Source: Ureibacillus sinduriensis BLB-1 = JCM 15800 (GTDB lineage Bacteria > Bacillota > Bacilli > Bacillales_A > Planococcaceae). From it: DNA of 64,000 nucleotides. The notes under the pieces were generated by a model. It had not been told where the DNA came from. It did not search any database and saw nothing but the letters and a program-made list of their open reading frames with translations. Within the stretch, counting starts at the first letter, position 1. Each line of letters opens with the position of its first letter. Positions 16,046-21,648 of the stretch are shown one piece after another. The stretch spans positions 1 through 64,000 of the forward strand of contig NZ_JPVO01000051.1 of NCBI RefSeq assembly GCF_000772955.1, written 5' to 3'. A program made the position numbers and the translations under genes.

Positions 16046-16714
16046 TTGTACAGAAGTGAACAAATAGTATTCGATAAGGAAAAACCCCATCGTGTTATTG
16101 TCCGCAATTATACAAAAGATGATTTTGAACAATTGATTGATATTCAGAAAGAATGTTTTCCGCCCCCTTTCCCGTCTGAATTATGGTGGAACAACGAACA
16201 ATTATTGAACCATGTCTCCCTATTTCCGCGAGGAGCTCTTTGTGTTGAGATCGATGGACAGGTTGCAAGTTCATTGACTGGCGTCTGCACTAATTTCAAT
16301 CCAGCTCATCCGAATCACACATGGGAAGAAGCAACGGATAGTGGATATATCACAAATCATGACCCGAATGGAAATACACTGTACATTGTCGATATTAGTG
16401 TTCGACCAACATTTCGCTCTTTGGGGCTGGGCAAAATAATGATGCAGGCAATGTACCATGTTGTTGTTGAGATGCAATTGGATCGCCTTCTTGGTGGGGG
16501 GAGAATACCAGGCTACCATAAGCAGGCAGGAAATATGTCCGCTCAAAGGTATGTGGATAAAGTCGTTGCTGGTGAATTATACGATCCGGTCATTACATTT
16601 TTATTGAAATGTGGACGTTTGCCAATCGCGGTTGTGGAAAATTATTTAGAGGACGAAGAATCATTAAACTACGGAGTTTTAATGGAATGGAAGAATCCTT
16701 TTAAACTCCTATAA
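16046..16714 (+). CDS. GNAT-family N-acetyltransferase
   Basis: A 222-residue acetyltransferase with the acetyl-CoA binding signature RSLGLGKIMMQAMY at about residues 131-144 and the strand YIVDISVRP before it. The long insert and the GRIPGYHKQAG segment match the GNAT domain of YhcX-like proteins. TTG at 16046 is preferred because AAGAGGTGG ends 5 nt before it; the GTG at 16037 lies inside that SD. It follows the hydrolase by 40 bp, so the two are co-transcribed and probably act on the same metabolite. Confidence 0.8.
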   Translation: MYRSEQIVFDKEKPHRVIVRNYTKDDFEQLIDIQKECFPPPFPSELWWNNEQLLNHVSLFPRGALCVEIDGQVASSLTGVCTNFNPAHPNHTWEEATDSGYITNHDPNGNTLYIVDISVRPTFRSLGLGKIMMQAMYHVVVEMQLDRLLGGGRIPGYHKQAGNMSAQRYVDKVVAGELYDPVITFLLKCGRLPIAVVENYLEDEESLNYGVLMEWKNPFKLL

Positions 16715-16722
16715 TTATAACG

Positions 16723-16758
16723 GAGGCTACTCATGTACTGAGGGAGTCTCTATTTTTT
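16723..16758 (+). terminator. Terminator after GNAT gene
   Basis: Imperfect hairpin GAGGCTACTCA / CTGAGGGAGTCTC followed by TATTTTTTT, 8 bp past the stop codon. Confidence 0.65.
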
Positions 16759-16916
16759 TCTAGATCTACGATACTTTGAATCAATTGATTTATTTACTAC
16801 TTCGTTAATTTACAACTATACAACTATAAAAAAATCATTGTTTAACAATAAGAACCTTACAACGCGATCTAAACTACATTTCACCTTAAAAAAGTTCACG
16901 TGTTTTTCAATTATAG

Positions 16917-17061
16917 ATACATACTAAAACAAAAGAGTTACATGAAGAACTAAAAAAAAATTAAACAGCAACTAAGTACAAATGATAGTAGATTACTTTC
17001 TGAGAATCAGAGTAAAGAAAAGAACTTCACTGAATATCAGTTTTTAAAAGACGCGTATTAA
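16917..17061 (+). pseudogene. Possible decayed small ORF with poly-A frameshift
   Basis: Two frames join across the A-run at 16952-16960: KTKELHEELKK from the first and KQQLSTNDSRLLSENQ to QFLKDAY-stop (stop ends 17064) from the second. Together they read as a plausible helical, charged protein, but there is no start codon or SD. The rest of 16759-17140 is AT-rich and shows nothing else. Confidence 0.25.
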
Positions 17062-17140
17062 ATATTTCTTCTCTTTCTATATTCATTAGAAAACTGGTGA
17101 ACTATATTAAATAGACTATTAACTTACTTTAACCTGAAAA

Positions 17141-17169
17141 AAAGAGTAAATAATAGTTAACATTCTCCC
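17141..17169 (+). promoter_or_regulatory. Candidate regulator box upstream of the secreted protein
   Basis: AAAGAG, 10 bases, TTAACATTCT, one base, CC. The same element with identical spacing (23 of 29 bases equal) lies at 19601-19629 between the Rgg-like regulator and the peptide gene. It ends 59 bp before the ATG at 17229; a TATAAA -10 candidate begins 16 bp after TTAACATTCT. Confidence 0.55.
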
Positions 17170-17228
17170 TGTTAGAAATTACTATAAATTACGATTTAAG
17201 AGAATTACAAATTATAGGAGGGATAAGA

Positions 17229-17897
17229 ATGAGCAAGTTTGGTAAGTTATTTGCATTTAGTCTTGTGTTGCTAGTTGGAGTTTTATTAGGGTTTTCACAA
17301 CCTACAGAAGCTTCGGAAGTTAAATCCTTTAAGGCCCCTGTAGGAAGTATCTTTGTTGAAATTCCTTATGACAAAAATAAAGTTGAATTAGAAAAAATTA
17401 ATTCTACGGACCCAAATGTAGATCAAGTTAATGTCTACGACAAAGAAACTAATGAATTGATTACAGAAATCAAAGTCGAAGAAGAGCCACTAGTACAAAC
17501 AAATGGTTTTAGTACTAACGCTACAACAAATAGTTATACACAAATGACGGTTACTCAATCAACAGGTACTAGTTATGGTAAAGCTTTTTTGAAGGCTAGA
17601 TTAAATGTATACTCTTCTGGTTCTTTCCGTCAGATTAATGAAGTAAATACTACTTGGTGGGAAGCAAGTAGTGGAATGGCCTATTTAGAACAACAAAACT
17701 CAAGTGCTATCTCTACTACAGGGAAATACCCAACAACAAAAATAAATGTATCAGGTGCTGCAACACTTACTGCAGAGATTAGTAACGATTATACAGTTGG
17801 ATTTGAAGCTGCTGGATTTAGCATATCTGGTGGTGCAAGTGGTACTTATTACGCGCGTAAAAATGTATCACATTCTTACACTTATTCTCTATATTAA
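17229..17897 (+). CDS. Secreted protein of unknown function
   Basis: A 222-residue protein, family not recognised. Signal peptide (MSKFGKLF, hydrophobic core, cleavage near EAS) then an acidic region (about 30-95) and a Ser/Thr/Gly/Tyr-rich region of alternating polarity (about 96-222) that looks all-beta, ending in HSYTYSLY. No cysteine in the mature part and no enzyme motif. SD AGGAGGG lies 7 nt before the ATG. Because of the shared upstream box it may be an output of the peptide-Rgg system; a secreted bacteriocin or surface protein is possible but unproven. Confidence 0.75.
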   Translation: MSKFGKLFAFSLVLLVGVLLGFSQPTEASEVKSFKAPVGSIFVEIPYDKNKVELEKINSTDPNVDQVNVYDKETNELITEIKVEEEPLVQTNGFSTNATTNSYTQMTVTQSTGTSYGKAFLKARLNVYSSGSFRQINEVNTTWWEASSGMAYLEQQNSSAISTTGKYPTTKINVSGAATLTAEISNDYTVGFEAAGFSISGGASGTYYARKNVSHSYTYSLY

Positions 17898-17920
17898 TAA
17901 AAATAAATACAGGAAGCTTA

Positions 17921-17965
17921 ATTTTTCACCCCTCGGTGATTCCATTAGGAATTTTCGGGGGGTAA
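17921..17965 (+). other. Imperfect hairpin after the secreted-protein gene
   Basis: TTTT-C-ACCCC pairs with GGGGGGT-AAAA around an inner ATTCC-ATTA-GGAAT stem. No T-run follows, so it is an unproven terminator or mRNA 3' stabiliser. The remaining bases to 18105 show no other gene. Confidence 0.4.
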
Positions 17966-18105
17966 AAGCATTTCTAAATTAAGATATAGAGTGTATTCTA
18001 ATTTATTTTAAATTCTTCATGGACTACTTTTAACTTTATCTTTAGAATCTAAAATAATTCATATTATTTAGATATTACTTTAAATACCAAACGAGGGGGC
18101 ATACT

Positions 18106-18612
18106 ATGAATAGAACCATTGGATTTTTTTTAAGCAGCTTGATATGTTTATTAGTATTAGTTGGATGTAGTGACAAAGAAGAAGATGTCGCTGGTGAGTT
18201 TCTTTTAGGAAATTTTGGCTTCACCCCTAATGAAAATGAAACTTACCATATCGTTGTACCAATTGAATGGACAGGTAAGGAGCCTGTTAACATAGTGTCA
18301 TTAGAGTTAATAAAAGGCGAAGAAGAGCCAATTACTCTCGAAGAAGATGGTATTAGCTATGAATTTTTTGGAGCCGACCCTTTAAAAACAACAGGAATAT
18401 ATGGTGATTCAGATATTGGAGATTTAACAAATTTGAAAAACTTAGTAATCGATGGCGAAGGGAAGTTAGTGCTCAAACTTAAAACTTCAAAAGTACAGGC
18501 AGACAATGAACGCAGAGTAAAAATCAAATTTAGTATTAATAGCAAAGAAATAGAAAAAATCGTTAAATGGAAAACACTTGAACAATTAACTACGAAACAA
18601 CAAGGAAATTAA
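18106..18612 (+). CDS. Lipoprotein of unknown function
   Basis: A 168-residue lipoprotein with signal peptide and lipobox LVGC (Cys about residue 21). The mature part is acidic and beta-rich (YHIVVPIEWTGKEPVNIVSLELI), like a small Ig-like adaptor domain; no known family recognised. SD GAGGGGG lies 7 nt before the ATG. Monocistronic, ending in the bidirectional terminator at 18628-18668. It lies between the secreted protein and the Rgg-like gene but does not carry the shared box. Confidence 0.75.
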   Translation: MNRTIGFFLSSLICLLVLVGCSDKEEDVAGEFLLGNFGFTPNENETYHIVVPIEWTGKEPVNIVSLELIKGEEEPITLEEDGISYEFFGADPLKTTGIYGDSDIGDLTNLKNLVIDGEGKLVLKLKTSKVQADNERRVKIKFSINSKEIEKIVKWKTLEQLTTKQQGN

Positions 18613-18627
18613 GCCAAATGGCCATTT

Positions 18628-18668
18628 AAAAAATCACCAACTCAATTGAGTTATGGTGATTTTTTTTA
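18628..18668. terminator. Bidirectional terminator
   Basis: AAAATCACCA / TGGTGATTTT stem around CTCAATTGAG, with an A-run on the left and TTTTTTTT on the right. Serves the lipoprotein (plus) and the Rgg-like gene (minus). Confidence 0.85.
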
Positions 18669-18725
18669 TTATGAAAAAGATAGAATATAATCTTTCTTTG
18701 CTATATCGAAATGTTTAAGTATTAG

Positions 18726-19583
18726 TTACAGCTGATACAATTTTTTGACCTTGTGATAGAAGGTATAGCACTGATCTTCTTTTGAAGATAGTTCCAAGAA
18801 GTTAAAGGTACTAATAATCTTCATGATAACTTCATTTCTATCTTGGCCGTCTATCATTTCTACTATCGCTGAGAAGTATTTGATCATAGCTTGTATATAC
18901 ATATTGTCCAGCACATCATTTTTTATTTTCTTCAATTCCACTAAGTAAAATTTAGCTCGCAATGTATCTTTAACTATTATAGTTTTTTCCAAAATATTAA
19001 ATAACATTAATGCAATTTCATTTCTGTATCTTTTTAAATTTTTTAATAATAATAGTGTATTAATTGCACGCGAATAAACTGAGTCTATCAATTCAAGTGA
19101 ATGAAAAGCGATAGTATTTGTAAATAAAGTAATTTCATAATATCCCCAAGTGTTACATCCCATAAGGTAGTCTCTAATTATAACTTGTTCATTTTCATTT
19201 TCATGATTGTCCTTTAGTTGGTCTATAAGCAGTAGAACTATTGCTTGGTAATGCCGGTATTTAACATTACCTGTGAATTCAAAATCTTTTTTAGCACCTT
19301 GCGCTATTTTACGCAATTCATCAATATTTTTATTATAATACGCTTCAGCGTATTGTTTAGTATACTGAAAGTCCTTATTTTCTGCTTTATAATAAAGCAC
19401 TTCAAATTCCTCTAAAGTAATATTCAATGCCTCCAAAATTAAGAAGAACTTTTCAACAGAAGTATCGCTTAGGCCTTTTTCAAATTTTGCTATCGCAGGT
19501 CTAGTTAAAATATTTCTATAAACTTTATTGGAAGGGATATTTTTACTCATTCGTATCTCTTTTATCACTGTTCCGATTTGCAC
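18726..19583 (-). CDS. Rgg/GadR/MutR-like transcriptional regulator
   Basis: A 285-residue protein with an N-terminal helix-turn-helix of the XRE type (about 5-60: VIKEIRMSKNIPSNKV, LTRPAIAKFEKG, SVEKFFLILEALNITLEEF) followed by an all-helical TPR-like domain (about 75-285). This is the layout and size of Rgg regulators of the RNPP class, whose C-terminal domain binds a re-imported peptide pheromone. GTG at 19583 is preferred (7 nt after AGGAGG); TTG at 19586 is the alternative. It is divergent from the peptide gene at 19695. Base composition is AT-rich compared with neighbours, hinting at acquisition. Confidence 0.8.
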   Translation of the reverse strand: MQIGTVIKEIRMSKNIPSNKVYRNILTRPAIAKFEKGLSDTSVEKFFLILEALNITLEEFEVLYYKAENKDFQYTKQYAEAYYNKNIDELRKIAQGAKKDFEFTGNVKYRHYQAIVLLLIDQLKDNHENENEQVIIRDYLMGCNTWGYYEITLFTNTIAFHSLELIDSVYSRAINTLLLLKNLKRYRNEIALMLFNILEKTIIVKDTLRAKFYLVELKKIKNDVLDNMYIQAMIKYFSAIVEMIDGQDRNEVIMKIISTFNFLELSSKEDQCYTFYHKVKKLYQL

Positions 19584-19600
19584 CAAAATACCTCCTAAAT

Positions 19601-19629
19601 AAAGAGTTAACTATGATTAACATTCTACC
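19601..19629 (+). promoter_or_regulatory. Candidate regulator box in the Rgg-peptide intergenic region
   Basis: AAAGAG (19601-19606), 10 bases, TTAACATTCT (19617-19626), one base, CC; matches the box at 17141-17169. It also contains the inverted repeat GTTAA-6-TTAAC (19606-19621). It ends 65 bp before the peptide ATG and lies beside the SD of the regulator, so it could control both directions. Confidence 0.55.
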
Positions 19630-19694
19630 GTATTTTACCTTTTATTTGAAATAATAGGAATATATTTAACTGATAGGAAAGGGGGTATTTAGAG

Positions 19695-19775
19695 ATGCTA
19701 GAATTTATAATGTTTTTACAAACTTCCGTGCCAACAGATTTAATAACTTTAACTTGGGATATTATAGGATATTAA
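19695..19775 (+). CDS. Short hydrophobic peptide, candidate Rgg pheromone precursor
   Basis: ATG to TAA, 26 residues, too short for ordinary gene calling. SD AAAGGGGG lies 9 nt before the ATG. The peptide begins MLEFIMFLQTS and ends in DLITLTWDIIGY, hydrophobic with an Asp and a Trp near the C-terminus, the general look of streptococcal SHP and XIP pheromone precursors, where the mature signal is the C-terminal 8-10 residues. It is divergent from the Rgg-like gene, the usual layout of one class of Rgg/SHP pairs. Unlike most SHPs its N-terminus is not basic. Function is inference from layout. Confidence 0.6.
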   Translation: MLEFIMFLQTSVPTDLITLTWDIIGY

Positions 19776-19853
19776 ATTACTAGTTCAATATAAAGAACCT
19801 ATAAAACATGATTCCTGGGTGAAAGCCGTTTTGGTGTAATAAATATTGCTAAA

Positions 19854-19910
19854 CAAAAACATCCCCGTTTTTTCTTATATAATAAAAGTCAAATTCGGGG
19901 ATGTTTATTT
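19854..19910. terminator. Terminator between peptide gene and tiny Cys ORFs
   Basis: AAACATCCCCG (about 19857-19867) pairs with CGGGGATGTTT (19895-19905) across a long AT-rich loop, followed by ATTTTTT on the plus strand and TTTTTG on the minus strand. It can end both convergent transcripts. Confidence 0.7.
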
Positions 19911-19911
19911 T

Positions 19912-19968
19912 TTATCTATTCTCTAGCCCATTACATTTTTCACATTTTCTTTGTGTGATTGATTCCAT
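19912..19968 (-). CDS. 18-residue CxxC micropeptide
   Basis: MESITQRKCEKCNGLENR, with a CxxC pair. GGAG lies 8 nt before the ATG, and the ATG shares one base with the stop of the preceding 59-codon frame (TAATG), suggesting translational coupling. Function unknown; the CxxC could bind metal or be redox active. Too short to be certain. Confidence 0.35.
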   Translation of the reverse strand: MESITQRKCEKCNGLENR

Positions 19969-20147
19969 TAAAAACACTCCAAATTTTTTTTACTTAAAAC
20001 AACAAACAAACACTTCTTTAAGCAAATGTTCTTGTTGGATTCATCTTCAAGATTCCCATCATGTTCCTTGATATGTATACTTAATGCACTAGCCAGGGCT
20101 AATGCAGCTTCCTTTTTTCCGCAATAAAAACAGGAAAGCCTTCCAAT
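19968..20147 (-). CDS. 59-residue Cys-containing small protein with ATT start
   Basis: An open frame that can start only at ATT (20147), 9 nt after AAGGAGG (20157-20163); an in-frame TAA lies two codons upstream. The product reads MGRLSCFYCGKKEAALALA, an acidic middle (EHDGNLEDES) and a C-terminus with three more Cys (NICLKKC, NLECF). The CxxC near the N-terminus suggests a metal or thiol site. The strong SD and coding-like residues argue it is real; ATT starts are rare (infC is the classic case), so a mutated start in a dying gene is the alternative. It follows the SASP gene by 32 bp. Confidence 0.45.
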   Translation of the reverse strand: MGRLSCFYCGKKEAALALASALSIHIKEHDGNLEDESNKNICLKKCLFVVLSKKNLECF

Positions 20148-20179
20148 AAGTTAACACCTCCTTAATAAACAAACCACTC

Positions 20180-20446
20180 CTACAAACTTTGATTCTTTTT
20201 TAAATCCTCTTGCGCCATTCTAACAAGTTCCTTTACCATGCTGCCACCCAGTCGGCCCCCAACTTTTCCGGCTTGTTCCGAAGTGAGCTTCCCATTATAG
20301 CCTTCTTTTAATGGTACGCCTACTTCATCTGCAATTTCATATTTCGCTTGCTCGGGATCAGTTGTCCCGGCAACTTTTGCTTTTAGTAAATCCAGTCCTT
20401 GTCGTGCTTCGGGAATCAAAATTTTATTTCTCTTTCTTCTTGCCAT
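20180..20446 (-). CDS. Alpha/beta-type small acid-soluble spore protein
   Basis: An 88-residue SASP: KYEIADEVGVPL contains the GPR protease site, and GGRLGGSMVKELVRMAQ is the conserved DNA-binding second half. It coats spore DNA in the forespore, protecting it from UV, and is degraded at germination. ATG at 20446 is preferred: AGGAGGGG is 7 nt before it, while the ATG at 20452 is too close. The N-terminus (MARRKRNKILIPEAR) is more basic than in SspA. Downstream lie the tiny Cys ORFs. Confidence 0.9.
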   Translation of the reverse strand: MARRKRNKILIPEARQGLDLLKAKVAGTTDPEQAKYEIADEVGVPLKEGYNGKLTSEQAGKVGGRLGGSMVKELVRMAQEDLKKNQSL

Positions 20447-20472
20447 AATCATTCCCCTCCTTTACATATATC

Positions 20473-20670
20473 ATGTCCCAAAGCAGGCATAAGCATGTTT
20501 TAATATTAAAAGTATCCGACCAAAATCACTCTCTTCAATATAGGAAAAAATATACATTTTGTTCTCATTCATTATTAGAAGAAGGAATAGAAAATTTTTT
20601 TGTTGAATTAATAAAACAAGGAAGAAATTACTTTTTGATAACTTCCGAATTCAATAAAAGGAGCGGATGA
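20473..20670 (+). CDS. Short ORF ahead of the intracellular protease (doubtful)
   Basis: A 65-codon frame (SLLEEGIENFFVELIKQGRNYFLI) ending inside the SD of the protease gene, 3 bp before its ATG, which would give coupling. No SD precedes its ATG and nothing is recognised in it. It overlaps the region where the SASP promoter must lie. More likely an open leader than a gene. Confidence 0.25.
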   Translation: MSQSRHKHVLILKVSDQNHSLQYRKKYTFCSHSLLEEGIENFFVELIKQGRNYFLITSEFNKRSG

Positions 20671-20673
20671 AAA

Positions 20674-21648
20674 ATGATTCAAAAACCGTTACAAGTCAGA
20701 TTGATTCCTTACACTATTCAGTCGGTTGTAGAGAACACAAACGAAATACCAAAAGGGATTGAGTTAATACAGGCACCCGATATTTGGGAAGATAGTAATC
20801 AAGGTGAAGGCATTGTAATTGCAGTTATTGATACTGGTATTGAAACCGATCATCCCGACCTCCAAGATCAAATTATCGACGGAAGAAACTTCACTTCCGA
20901 TTATGATGGCGATCCCAATATATTTGAGGATAACAATGGACATGGTACCCATGTATCAGGAACGATTGCTGCTAGCCTAAATAACGCGGGGGTTGTTGGG
21001 GTCGCCCCCAAAGCCAAAATCCTAAGTTTAAAAGCACTAACCGGGGAGGGGTCCGGTAATTACGAGTGGATTATCAATGCCATTAAATTTGCGACAGAGT
21101 GGCGTGGTCCCGACCAGGAACGAGTCCGCGTAATTTCAATGTCATTGGGTGGTCCTGAAGATGTTCCAGAAATGCATAAAGCTATTCAAAAAGCAGTTAG
21201 CCAAGGTATTTCCGTCGTAGTGGCTGCTGGAAACGAAGGGGATAATAGTGAAGACACTTTCGAGTATTCTTATCCTGGAAAATACAATGAAGTGATCCAA
21301 GTGGGAGCTGTTGATAATAATTTAACACTCGCTCCGTTTTCGAATACAAATGAAGAGATAGACTTGGTTGCCCCCGGAGTAGAAGTTGTCTCTACGTACT
21401 TGGGCAATAAATATGCTTCCCTGTCCGGCACTTCTATGGCAACTCCTCATATCGCCGGTGCTCTGGCACTTCTTATTGTTTTGAGCGAAAAAGAGTTTGG
21501 CCGTACTTTGAGCGAAGCAGAAATTTATGCCCAGCTTATTAAACGGACTTTACCAATCGGAAATCGTAAAAGTTCCGAAGGGAATGGTTTCCTGAACCTT
21601 AACCTAGTTGAAAGAATTCAAGAGATGATGACTGCGGCCCATTCTTAA
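20674..21648 (+). CDS. isp: Intracellular serine protease (subtilisin ISP family)
   Basis: A 324-residue subtilase without signal peptide. The short N-terminal pro-region carries the LIPY motif (residues about 10-13) that blocks the active site of ISP zymogens. Catalytic Asp53 (VIDTG), His90 (NGHGTHVSG), oxyanion Asn187 (AAGNEG) and Ser254 (GTSMATPH) are all present. ISPs turn over cytosolic protein in stationary phase and sporulation. SD AAAAGGAGCGG lies 7 nt before the ATG. Size matches B. subtilis IspA (about 319). Confidence 0.93.
   Translation: MIQKPLQVRLIPYTIQSVVENTNEIPKGIELIQAPDIWEDSNQGEGIVIAVIDTGIETDHPDLQDQIIDGRNFTSDYDGDPNIFEDNNGHGTHVSGTIAASLNNAGVVGVAPKAKILSLKALTGEGSGNYEWIINAIKFATEWRGPDQERVRVISMSLGGPEDVPEMHKAIQKAVSQGISVVVAAGNEGDNSEDTFEYSYPGKYNEVIQVGAVDNNLTLAPFSNTNEEIDLVAPGVEVVSTYLGNKYASLSGTSMATPHIAGALALLIVLSEKEFGRTLSEAEIYAQLIKRTLPIGNRKSSEGNGFLNLNLVERIQEMMTAAHS

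Follow-up and report, generated by a model that had tools for sequence, protein, structure and literature searches.

A predicted Rgg/pheromone gene pair with a conserved W-D-x-I-G peptide core in Ureibacillus sinduriensis

Two described types of peptide signalling pair an Rgg-family receptor with a tiny peptide gene: the streptococcal Rgg/SHP systems, and the RopB systems with their leaderless communication peptides (LCPs). One account defines SHPs by a conserved Asp or Glu and gives mature forms such as DILIIVGG (PMC3679016). LCPs have mostly 8-10 residues, aliphatic and aromatic, a few longer exceptions being allowed (PMC10518010), and RopB/LCP pairs have been reported in Bacillaceae, including B. 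cereus and Lysinibacillus sphaericus (Aggarwal 2023, PMC10518010). A 2025 paper described the Rgg clade as confined to non-spore-forming Lactobacillales. Because LCPs of the RopB clan have been reported in Bacillaceae (PMC10518010), spore-formers are not an entirely new setting for Rgg-type signalling, and a preliminary description of our locus was only partly right in stating that such circuits had not been described for them. We analyzed a stretch of 64,000 nucleotides of U. sinduriensis BLB-1 (the window) and found a gene for an Rgg-family regulator divergent from a 26-codon ORF, with an operator-like dyad upstream of the ORF and a second copy of it before another gene (Table 1).

The regulator gene and the divergent small ORF

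The regulator combines a helix-turn-helix with an Rgg C-terminal domain. It is matched by the Pfam models Rgg_C (PF21259; 1.3e-36, 126.4 bits against a cut-off of 27) and HTH_3 (PF01381; residues 8-61, 2.5e-6, 27.8 bits against 23) and by the NCBIfam model TIGR01716 (1.3e-27, 96.9 bits against 36.9). The C-terminal domain models score above their curated cut-offs and the N-terminal helix-turn-helix is present, which places the protein in the Rgg/GadR/MutR family and bears out its first description as an RNPP-type regulator with an XRE helix-turn-helix and a peptide-binding-like domain. Its sequence relatives in the PDB include RopB and the entries 9lth, 4yv6, 4ryk, 7zcv, and 10lg, whose titles name NrpR, Rgg2, a Listeria regulator, Rgg144, and Rgg3, respectively; among solved receptors, NrpR of S. 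salivarius K12 (9lth) scores highest. A shallow AlphaFold model (2 sequences; pLDDT 72, pTM 0.60) retrieved 17 chains with Foldseek at E<=0.001, which belong to Rgg2, Rgg144, NrpR, and the Listeria regulator. Since the model is shallow and its TM scores with these 17 best chains are only 0.34-0.43, it backs the family and not the pocket. We regard the product as a predicted pheromone receptor.

A gap of 108 nt separates the small ORF, with its Shine-Dalgarno sequence AAAGGGGG, from the regulator gene. The coordinates of both genes were correctly given in the preliminary description. The peptide ends in TWDIIGY, with the C-terminal core W-D-I-I-G, and contains neither Lys nor Arg; a basic N-terminus is absent, as had been noticed before, and most relatives are alike in this. 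Transcription of the peptide gene may terminate at the inverted repeat behind the ORF, which the terminator scan did not call; its loop exceeds the limit of 8 set in that scan. Between the peptide ORF and the repeat the window has no long same-direction ORF. Rfam models gave no match at the gathering score over 16500-21000, and an RNA element between the genes was rejected on this ground. A sigma-70 scan stayed at shuffle level (20 found versus a mean of 16.1, sd 4.0). Further along the window, an alpha/beta SASP gene at 20180-20452 suggests a spore-forming host.

Table 1. Features of the locus and of the related Lysinibacillus locus L027
Feature	Position	Strand	Remarks
Rgg-family regulator gene	18726-19586 (stop included)	minus	286 aa, TTG start
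Putative peptide pheromone precursor ORF	19695-19775	plus	26 codons, MLEFIMFLQTSVPTDLITLTWDIIGY
Ribosome-binding site of the peptide ORF	19678-19685	plus	AAAGGGGG, nine bases 5' of the ATG
Operator-like box (candidate)	19601-19629	none	29 nt around the 16-bp dyad
16-bp dyad	19606-19621		GTTAACTATGATTAAC (GTTAA-N6-TTAAC-like); 89 nt from dyad start to peptide start
Second box copy	17141-17169	none	23/29 identical to the first box
Second dyad	17146-17161		GTAAATAATAGTTAAC; 83 nt from dyad start to the ATG of the 17229-17897 gene
Predicted target gene, 222-aa protein	17229-17897	plus	Box upstream; signal-peptide-like N-terminus (by eye)
Inverted repeat, then T-rich tail	19857-19906	plus	AAACATCCCCG...CGGGGATGTTT, read by eye
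RiPP-like precursor ORF, 43 aa, Lysinibacillus sp. ZYM-1	L027:532-663		Dyad 81 nt upstream
Genes after the ZYM-1 precursor	L027:742-5413		Flavin oxidoreductase, PLP decarboxylase, unassigned 431-aa protein, MFS transporter

Conservation of the peptide core, the dyad, and the receptor clade

The preliminary description had made conservation of the peptide beside orthologues of the regulator one of the checks on which its proposal should stand or fall, and there the frame is conserved. In the first relative, Lysinibacillus sp. ZYM-1 (loci L005 and L027; L numbers denote loci), which belongs to the same genome family as the window and is placed in Bacillaceae by NCBI, the receptor is 64% identical and a 30-codon ORF in the matching place ends in IWDLIGG. 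On a plasmid of Jeotgalibaca (Carnobacteriaceae) the receptor is 34% identical and the peptide ends in VWDIITGR; the frame is kept beside receptors down to about 33% identity. Of the 14 clade loci, 11 carry, no more than 300 bp from the start of the regulator gene, a small divergent ORF whose product ends in [W/F]-D-[I/L/V]-I-(x)-G; the set includes the near-identical L028 and L029, and L034 could be searched over 213 bp only. Such an ORF turned up in one of 14,000 dinucleotide shuffles of the searched stretches and in none of 3,157 other 300-bp windows of those loci; because the motif was taken from the tested sequences themselves, the window and L005 having suggested it first, this test is partly post hoc. 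The motif ORF is missing from L030, where a transporter gene occupies its position, and from L034 and L038. A search of 261 genomes of the family at E<=1e-20 gave 18 matches in 14 genomes; the motif ORF accompanies 10 of them and is missing from eight, among which L002 is a fragment without a start and L013 has only 213 bp upstream.

Codons of the core differ synonymously (GAT/GAC, ATT/TTA/TTG/GTT, ATA/ATC/ATT, GGA/GGG/GGT) while the residues are constant. In the longer peptides, such as the 26-30 residues of the window, L027, and L028, the N-terminal half varies and the C-terminal core is conserved, as would befit a pheromone precursor. Asp, which is part of the search motif, occurs in all 11 peptides and is preceded by an aromatic residue in 11/11; GRAVY values are 0.78-1.89. 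Lys and Arg are absent from seven of the 11 if starts are chosen by Shine-Dalgarno sequence and from six if the longest ORFs are taken. The L027 peptide has one basic residue, at position 3, and longest-ORF starts give L031 and L033 an N-terminal Lys. Starts are uncertain in L031, L032, and L033, whose longest ORFs encode 25, 26, and 30 residues and whose internal starts, picked for a better Shine-Dalgarno sequence, give 19, 15, and 14. The precursors of L035, L036, L037, and L022 have 15-16 residues under either choice, and lengths among the relatives range over 14-30 residues. A G-rich stretch precedes the other 10 peptide ORFs too, the start having been chosen by this stretch in L031, L032, and L033. 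As far as sequence comparison can tell, the 26-codon ORF of the window is confirmed to be more than chance.

The preliminary description had overlooked the operator-like dyad, including the copy that precedes the 17229 gene. In the 130 bp next to the start of rgg on its upstream side, a fixed dyad pattern is present in 12 of 14 clade loci, namely all 11 with the peptide and L030; it is missing from L034 and L038, which both lack the peptide ORF, and occurs in two of 30 non-clade Rgg loci. From dyad start to start codon the distance is 72-95 nt over the 11 peptide genes, and in L030 the dyad starts 91 nt before the transporter gene. A joint pattern with up to three mismatches found two sites only in the 4.02-Mb genome (one match for a backwards control pattern), which, because the pattern was built from both sites, shows only the absence of a third close copy. 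In 4 Mb of Markov sequence, no site reached 23/29 and one reached 22. Within 14 kb of ZYM-1 sequence there are two copies of the identical 16 bp (expected 0.01), one ahead of the peptide and the other ahead of a putative precursor ORF, each at a distance of 81 nt.

Per-locus box scans are weak on their own, an 18/24 match of the window region arising in 3/60 shuffles, and the operator case weighs on the 29-nt version and the whole-genome scan. A pattern from the first site alone, at three mismatches, gave a site on contig C42, with six control matches versus two real ones, and an 18-nt dyad pattern at three mismatches gave six matches in the window versus 3.0 expected. An ORF with a Shine-Dalgarno sequence follows at 65-110 nt in 15 of 36 strand-wise dyad matches. 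One of these 15, the match at -7911 in L031, is probably due to chance. Box-like sequences also lie between rgg and the next gene in L035 (about -1042) and L037 (about -985 from the rgg start), two species of one genus; they agree with their own boxes at 20/24 and 17/24 positions, lack the strict dyad, and have different genes behind them.

For the 222-aa protein encoded behind the second box, Pfam and NCBIfam gave nothing over cut-off and the PDB nothing at E<=1; homologues occur in two other genomes of the 261 in the family. The 43-aa ORF of ZYM-1 matched no NCBIfam model, and we call it RiPP-like from the ORF and its neighbours. A same-direction gene follows the peptide ORF at short distance in L031, L032, L033, and L036. 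The proteins in L031 and L032 have signal-like starts and no Pfam match, that of L036 is 70% identical to that of L032, and L033 encodes proteins of the ATP-grasp amino-acid-ligase type; in L028 an ATP-grasp protein follows at greater distance. Between the predicted target and rgg, the window also holds a lipoprotein-like ORF of 168 residues without a Pfam match (18106-18612).

In a tree of 43 rows, from which L029 was left out as near-identical to L028, the ten motif-bearing receptors form one clade of 13 rows with L030, L034, and L038 (support 100/97). The SHP-type rows L063, L064, and L068 fall outside this clade, as do the LCP-like rows L020, L024, and L058, RopB itself not being in the tree. 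The tree leaves its deeper forks open and contains several long rows, so it does not fix the closest outside relative of the clade. Among Shine-Dalgarno-preceded upstream ORFs of 30 non-clade Rgg loci (24 new places of the 1e-12 class search and six other Rgg loci, ten further places lying outside the set) there was no W-D-x-I-G peptide; three SHP-type peptides (L063, L064, L068) were recovered as positive controls of the pipeline.

Occurrence is patchy, with relatives in 14 of the 261 genomes of the family, and other Bacilli are thinly sampled. Within the genus, one of 25 genomes, that of the window, has the regulator gene. A class search of 398 genomes found three at E<=1e-30, namely that of the window and two more from its family, and 28 at 1e-12; a search of 382 genomes of a neighbouring order found one at 1e-20 (25% identity), the centre genome itself; the order-level search ran over the 261 genomes already covered by the family search and made no additions. 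A phage origin was rejected: of 100 pattern matches in a profile scan of viral contigs none was a confirmed relative, and phage records gave eight weak Rgg matches (23.5-24.8% identity).

Several other loci came to light. L034 and L038, clade members with neither peptide ORF nor dyad (L034 with 213 bp of upstream contig), are possible eavesdroppers or decayed circuits. The genome of the window carries a 5'-truncated Rgg remnant (L002, C54:1295-1750), 58-59% identical to the regulator and adjoining a run of tRNA-like genes (by eye), and a second Rgg gene (L003, C42:126164-126907) with a divergent 36-codon ORF, MKKTSSIFKLVAVAAVAIIATTNPEIRAMMWFIGYD, that has a basic N-terminus. L018, its sister in the tree, has an ORF of 39-40 codons ending in DHWWLVKP, and the two ORFs possibly represent another pheromone type. 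On the lactocin S plasmid of Latilactobacillus sakei (L024), an LCP-like 9-codon ORF, MYLIGLFLL, is divergent from an Rgg-type regulator gene. Within the window's family, L020 and L021 share a separate 16-aa peptide type, MGGWIDIFYVITLFIF, perhaps the one reported as an LCP of L. sphaericus in PMC10518010.

A proposed circuit and its alternatives

In our view the locus very probably forms an autoinducing Rgg/pheromone circuit. Translation of the small ORF would yield a hydrophobic precursor from which the C-terminal part, perhaps 7-10 residues with W-D-I-I-G, would be released and leave the cell; the peptide would re-enter through an oligopeptide permease and bind the adjacently encoded Rgg. 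This would act at the dyad before the peptide gene and at the second copy, and the peptide-bound form would switch on its own pheromone and the secreted-type protein of the 17229 gene. Translation, export, processing, import, binding, and the direction of regulation are steps that we infer, positive autoregulation from the position of the dyad ahead of the peptide and target genes and from streptococcal cases. Mature SHPs start at the Asp/Glu, leave the cell by PptAB, and re-enter it by Ami/Opp. The genome encodes EcsB, which we take to be the counterpart of PptB, and many Opp-type binding proteins, both generic and expected in a Bacillus-like cell. Counting against such a circuit are the precursors of 15-16 residues (L035, L036, L037, L022), very short for export and cleavage, the lack of Lys and Arg in the window peptide, the absence of the motif from 3/14 clade loci and 8/18 family matches, and the restriction of the regulator gene to one of 25 genomes of the genus.

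It is unlikely, while deserving serious attention, that the peptide is instead a leaderless communication peptide of the RopB/LCP type, with little or no processing and export outside the PptAB/Eep route. Four relatives do encode just 15-16 residues whichever start is chosen, the solved receptor that scores best by sequence, NrpR, appears to be an LCP-responsive regulator of S. salivarius, and LCPs are on record for Bacillaceae (Aggarwal 2023, PMC10518010). However, the variable N-terminal half and conserved core of the window, L027, and L028 peptides form the pattern of processed precursors, their 26-30 residues exceed the 8-10 of most LCPs (PMC10518010), and the conserved Asp and Gly recall SHPs.

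It is quite improbable that the ORF serves a downstream gene as leader peptide or attenuator, as the close same-direction genes in L031, L032, L033, and L036 might suggest: the window has no such long ORF ahead of the inverted repeat, the conserved C-terminal residues with synonymous codon change fit a protein product, and the dyad is also found apart from such ORFs. The hydrophobicity of the 11 peptides would suit a small membrane toxin or antimicrobial peptide, a very improbable reading given that conservation falls on W-D-x-I-G rather than on a membrane span, for which the 15-16 residues of four relatives are few, and given the empty Rfam search and the pairing of the ORF with one Rgg clade and its dyad. 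That the frame is open by chance, with a regulator that senses something else, is barely conceivable: short ORFs are common and eight of 18 family matches lack the motif, but the shuffles and control windows gave almost none and the motif carriers are confined to one clade.

If the circuit is accepted, the same peptide ending beside the same receptor in relatives points to a real, little-known form of bacterial communication, and the locus and its relatives argue against an Rgg clade confined to non-spore-forming Lactobacillales, as held in 2025. In its strict mode, a published detector accepts only peptides that have a Sec signal or fit the SHP profile (PMC10075063), and detectors of this kind would be expected to miss W-D-x-I-G peptides. 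The operator rule, a dyad whose start lies 72-95 nt ahead of the start codon, makes genome sequence a testable target list and already flags the secreted-type protein here and the RiPP-like operon in Lysinibacillus. The spread of precursor lengths offers a route to studying how a processed signal might turn leaderless.

Comparison with described peptide systems

A literature search that included literal strings found no description of a W-D-x-I-G pheromone, subscription papers and supplements (that of Aggarwal 2023 included) lying outside its scope. PlcR/PapR, NprR/NprX, and Rap/Phr of Bacillales share with the locus a cytoplasmic TPR-type receptor and an adjacent peptide gene; their pheromone genes, however, lie immediately downstream and use Sec-type export (PMC9765709), whereas the window regulator matches Rgg_C. 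We rejected the PlcR/NprR/Rap and XIP/ComS readings on the match to Rgg_C and the W-D-x-I-G ending of the peptide.

RtgR/RtgS resembles the locus in the divergent, Trp-containing, SHP-like pheromone of an Rgg. RtgS has Trp-Gly-Trp and lacks the conserved Asp/Glu (PMC7018657), whereas the window-clade peptides lack Trp-X-Trp and have one aromatic residue, W or F, beside an invariant Asp. With RopB/LCP systems the locus shares the Rgg-family receptor and a tiny, often divergent peptide gene; it differs in its ORF of 26 residues (14-30 in relatives), outside the 8-10 residues of LCPs, and in the conserved Asp and Gly.

The Rgg/SHP systems (streptococcal Rgg2/Rgg3, Rgg1358, Rgg144) have in common with the locus the receptor family and the divergent gene for a small hydrophobic peptide. 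As in SHP groups I and II, the ORF is adjacent to rgg and divergent and carries a C-terminal Asp, and the SHPs DILIIVGG and EGIIVIVVG (PMC3679016) show an acidic residue followed by aliphatics and Gly, as does the window peptide. The clade differs in the aromatic residue before Asp in its W/F-D-x-I-(x)-G core, in a host family that is spore-forming, and in that its receptors do not group with the streptococcal SHP-associated Rggs. The likeness to SHP and XIP precursors first proposed thus holds as far as SHP-like; since the basic N-terminus that precedes a hydrophobic stretch in SHPs is mostly absent, precursors go down to 15-16 residues, and the receptors form their own clade, the peptide is neither an SHP proper nor a XIP. 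On balance we favour a distinct class of Rgg pheromones, defined by the W-D-x-I-G core, its own receptor clade, and a portable 16-bp operator. It would occur in Lysinibacillus-related spore-formers and on a Carnobacteriaceae plasmid and control secreted proteins and peptide-product clusters, one of them RiPP-like; with precursors that span 30 to 15-16 residues within one clade (or 14, should the internal start of L033 be right), it would bridge processed SHPs and leaderless peptides.
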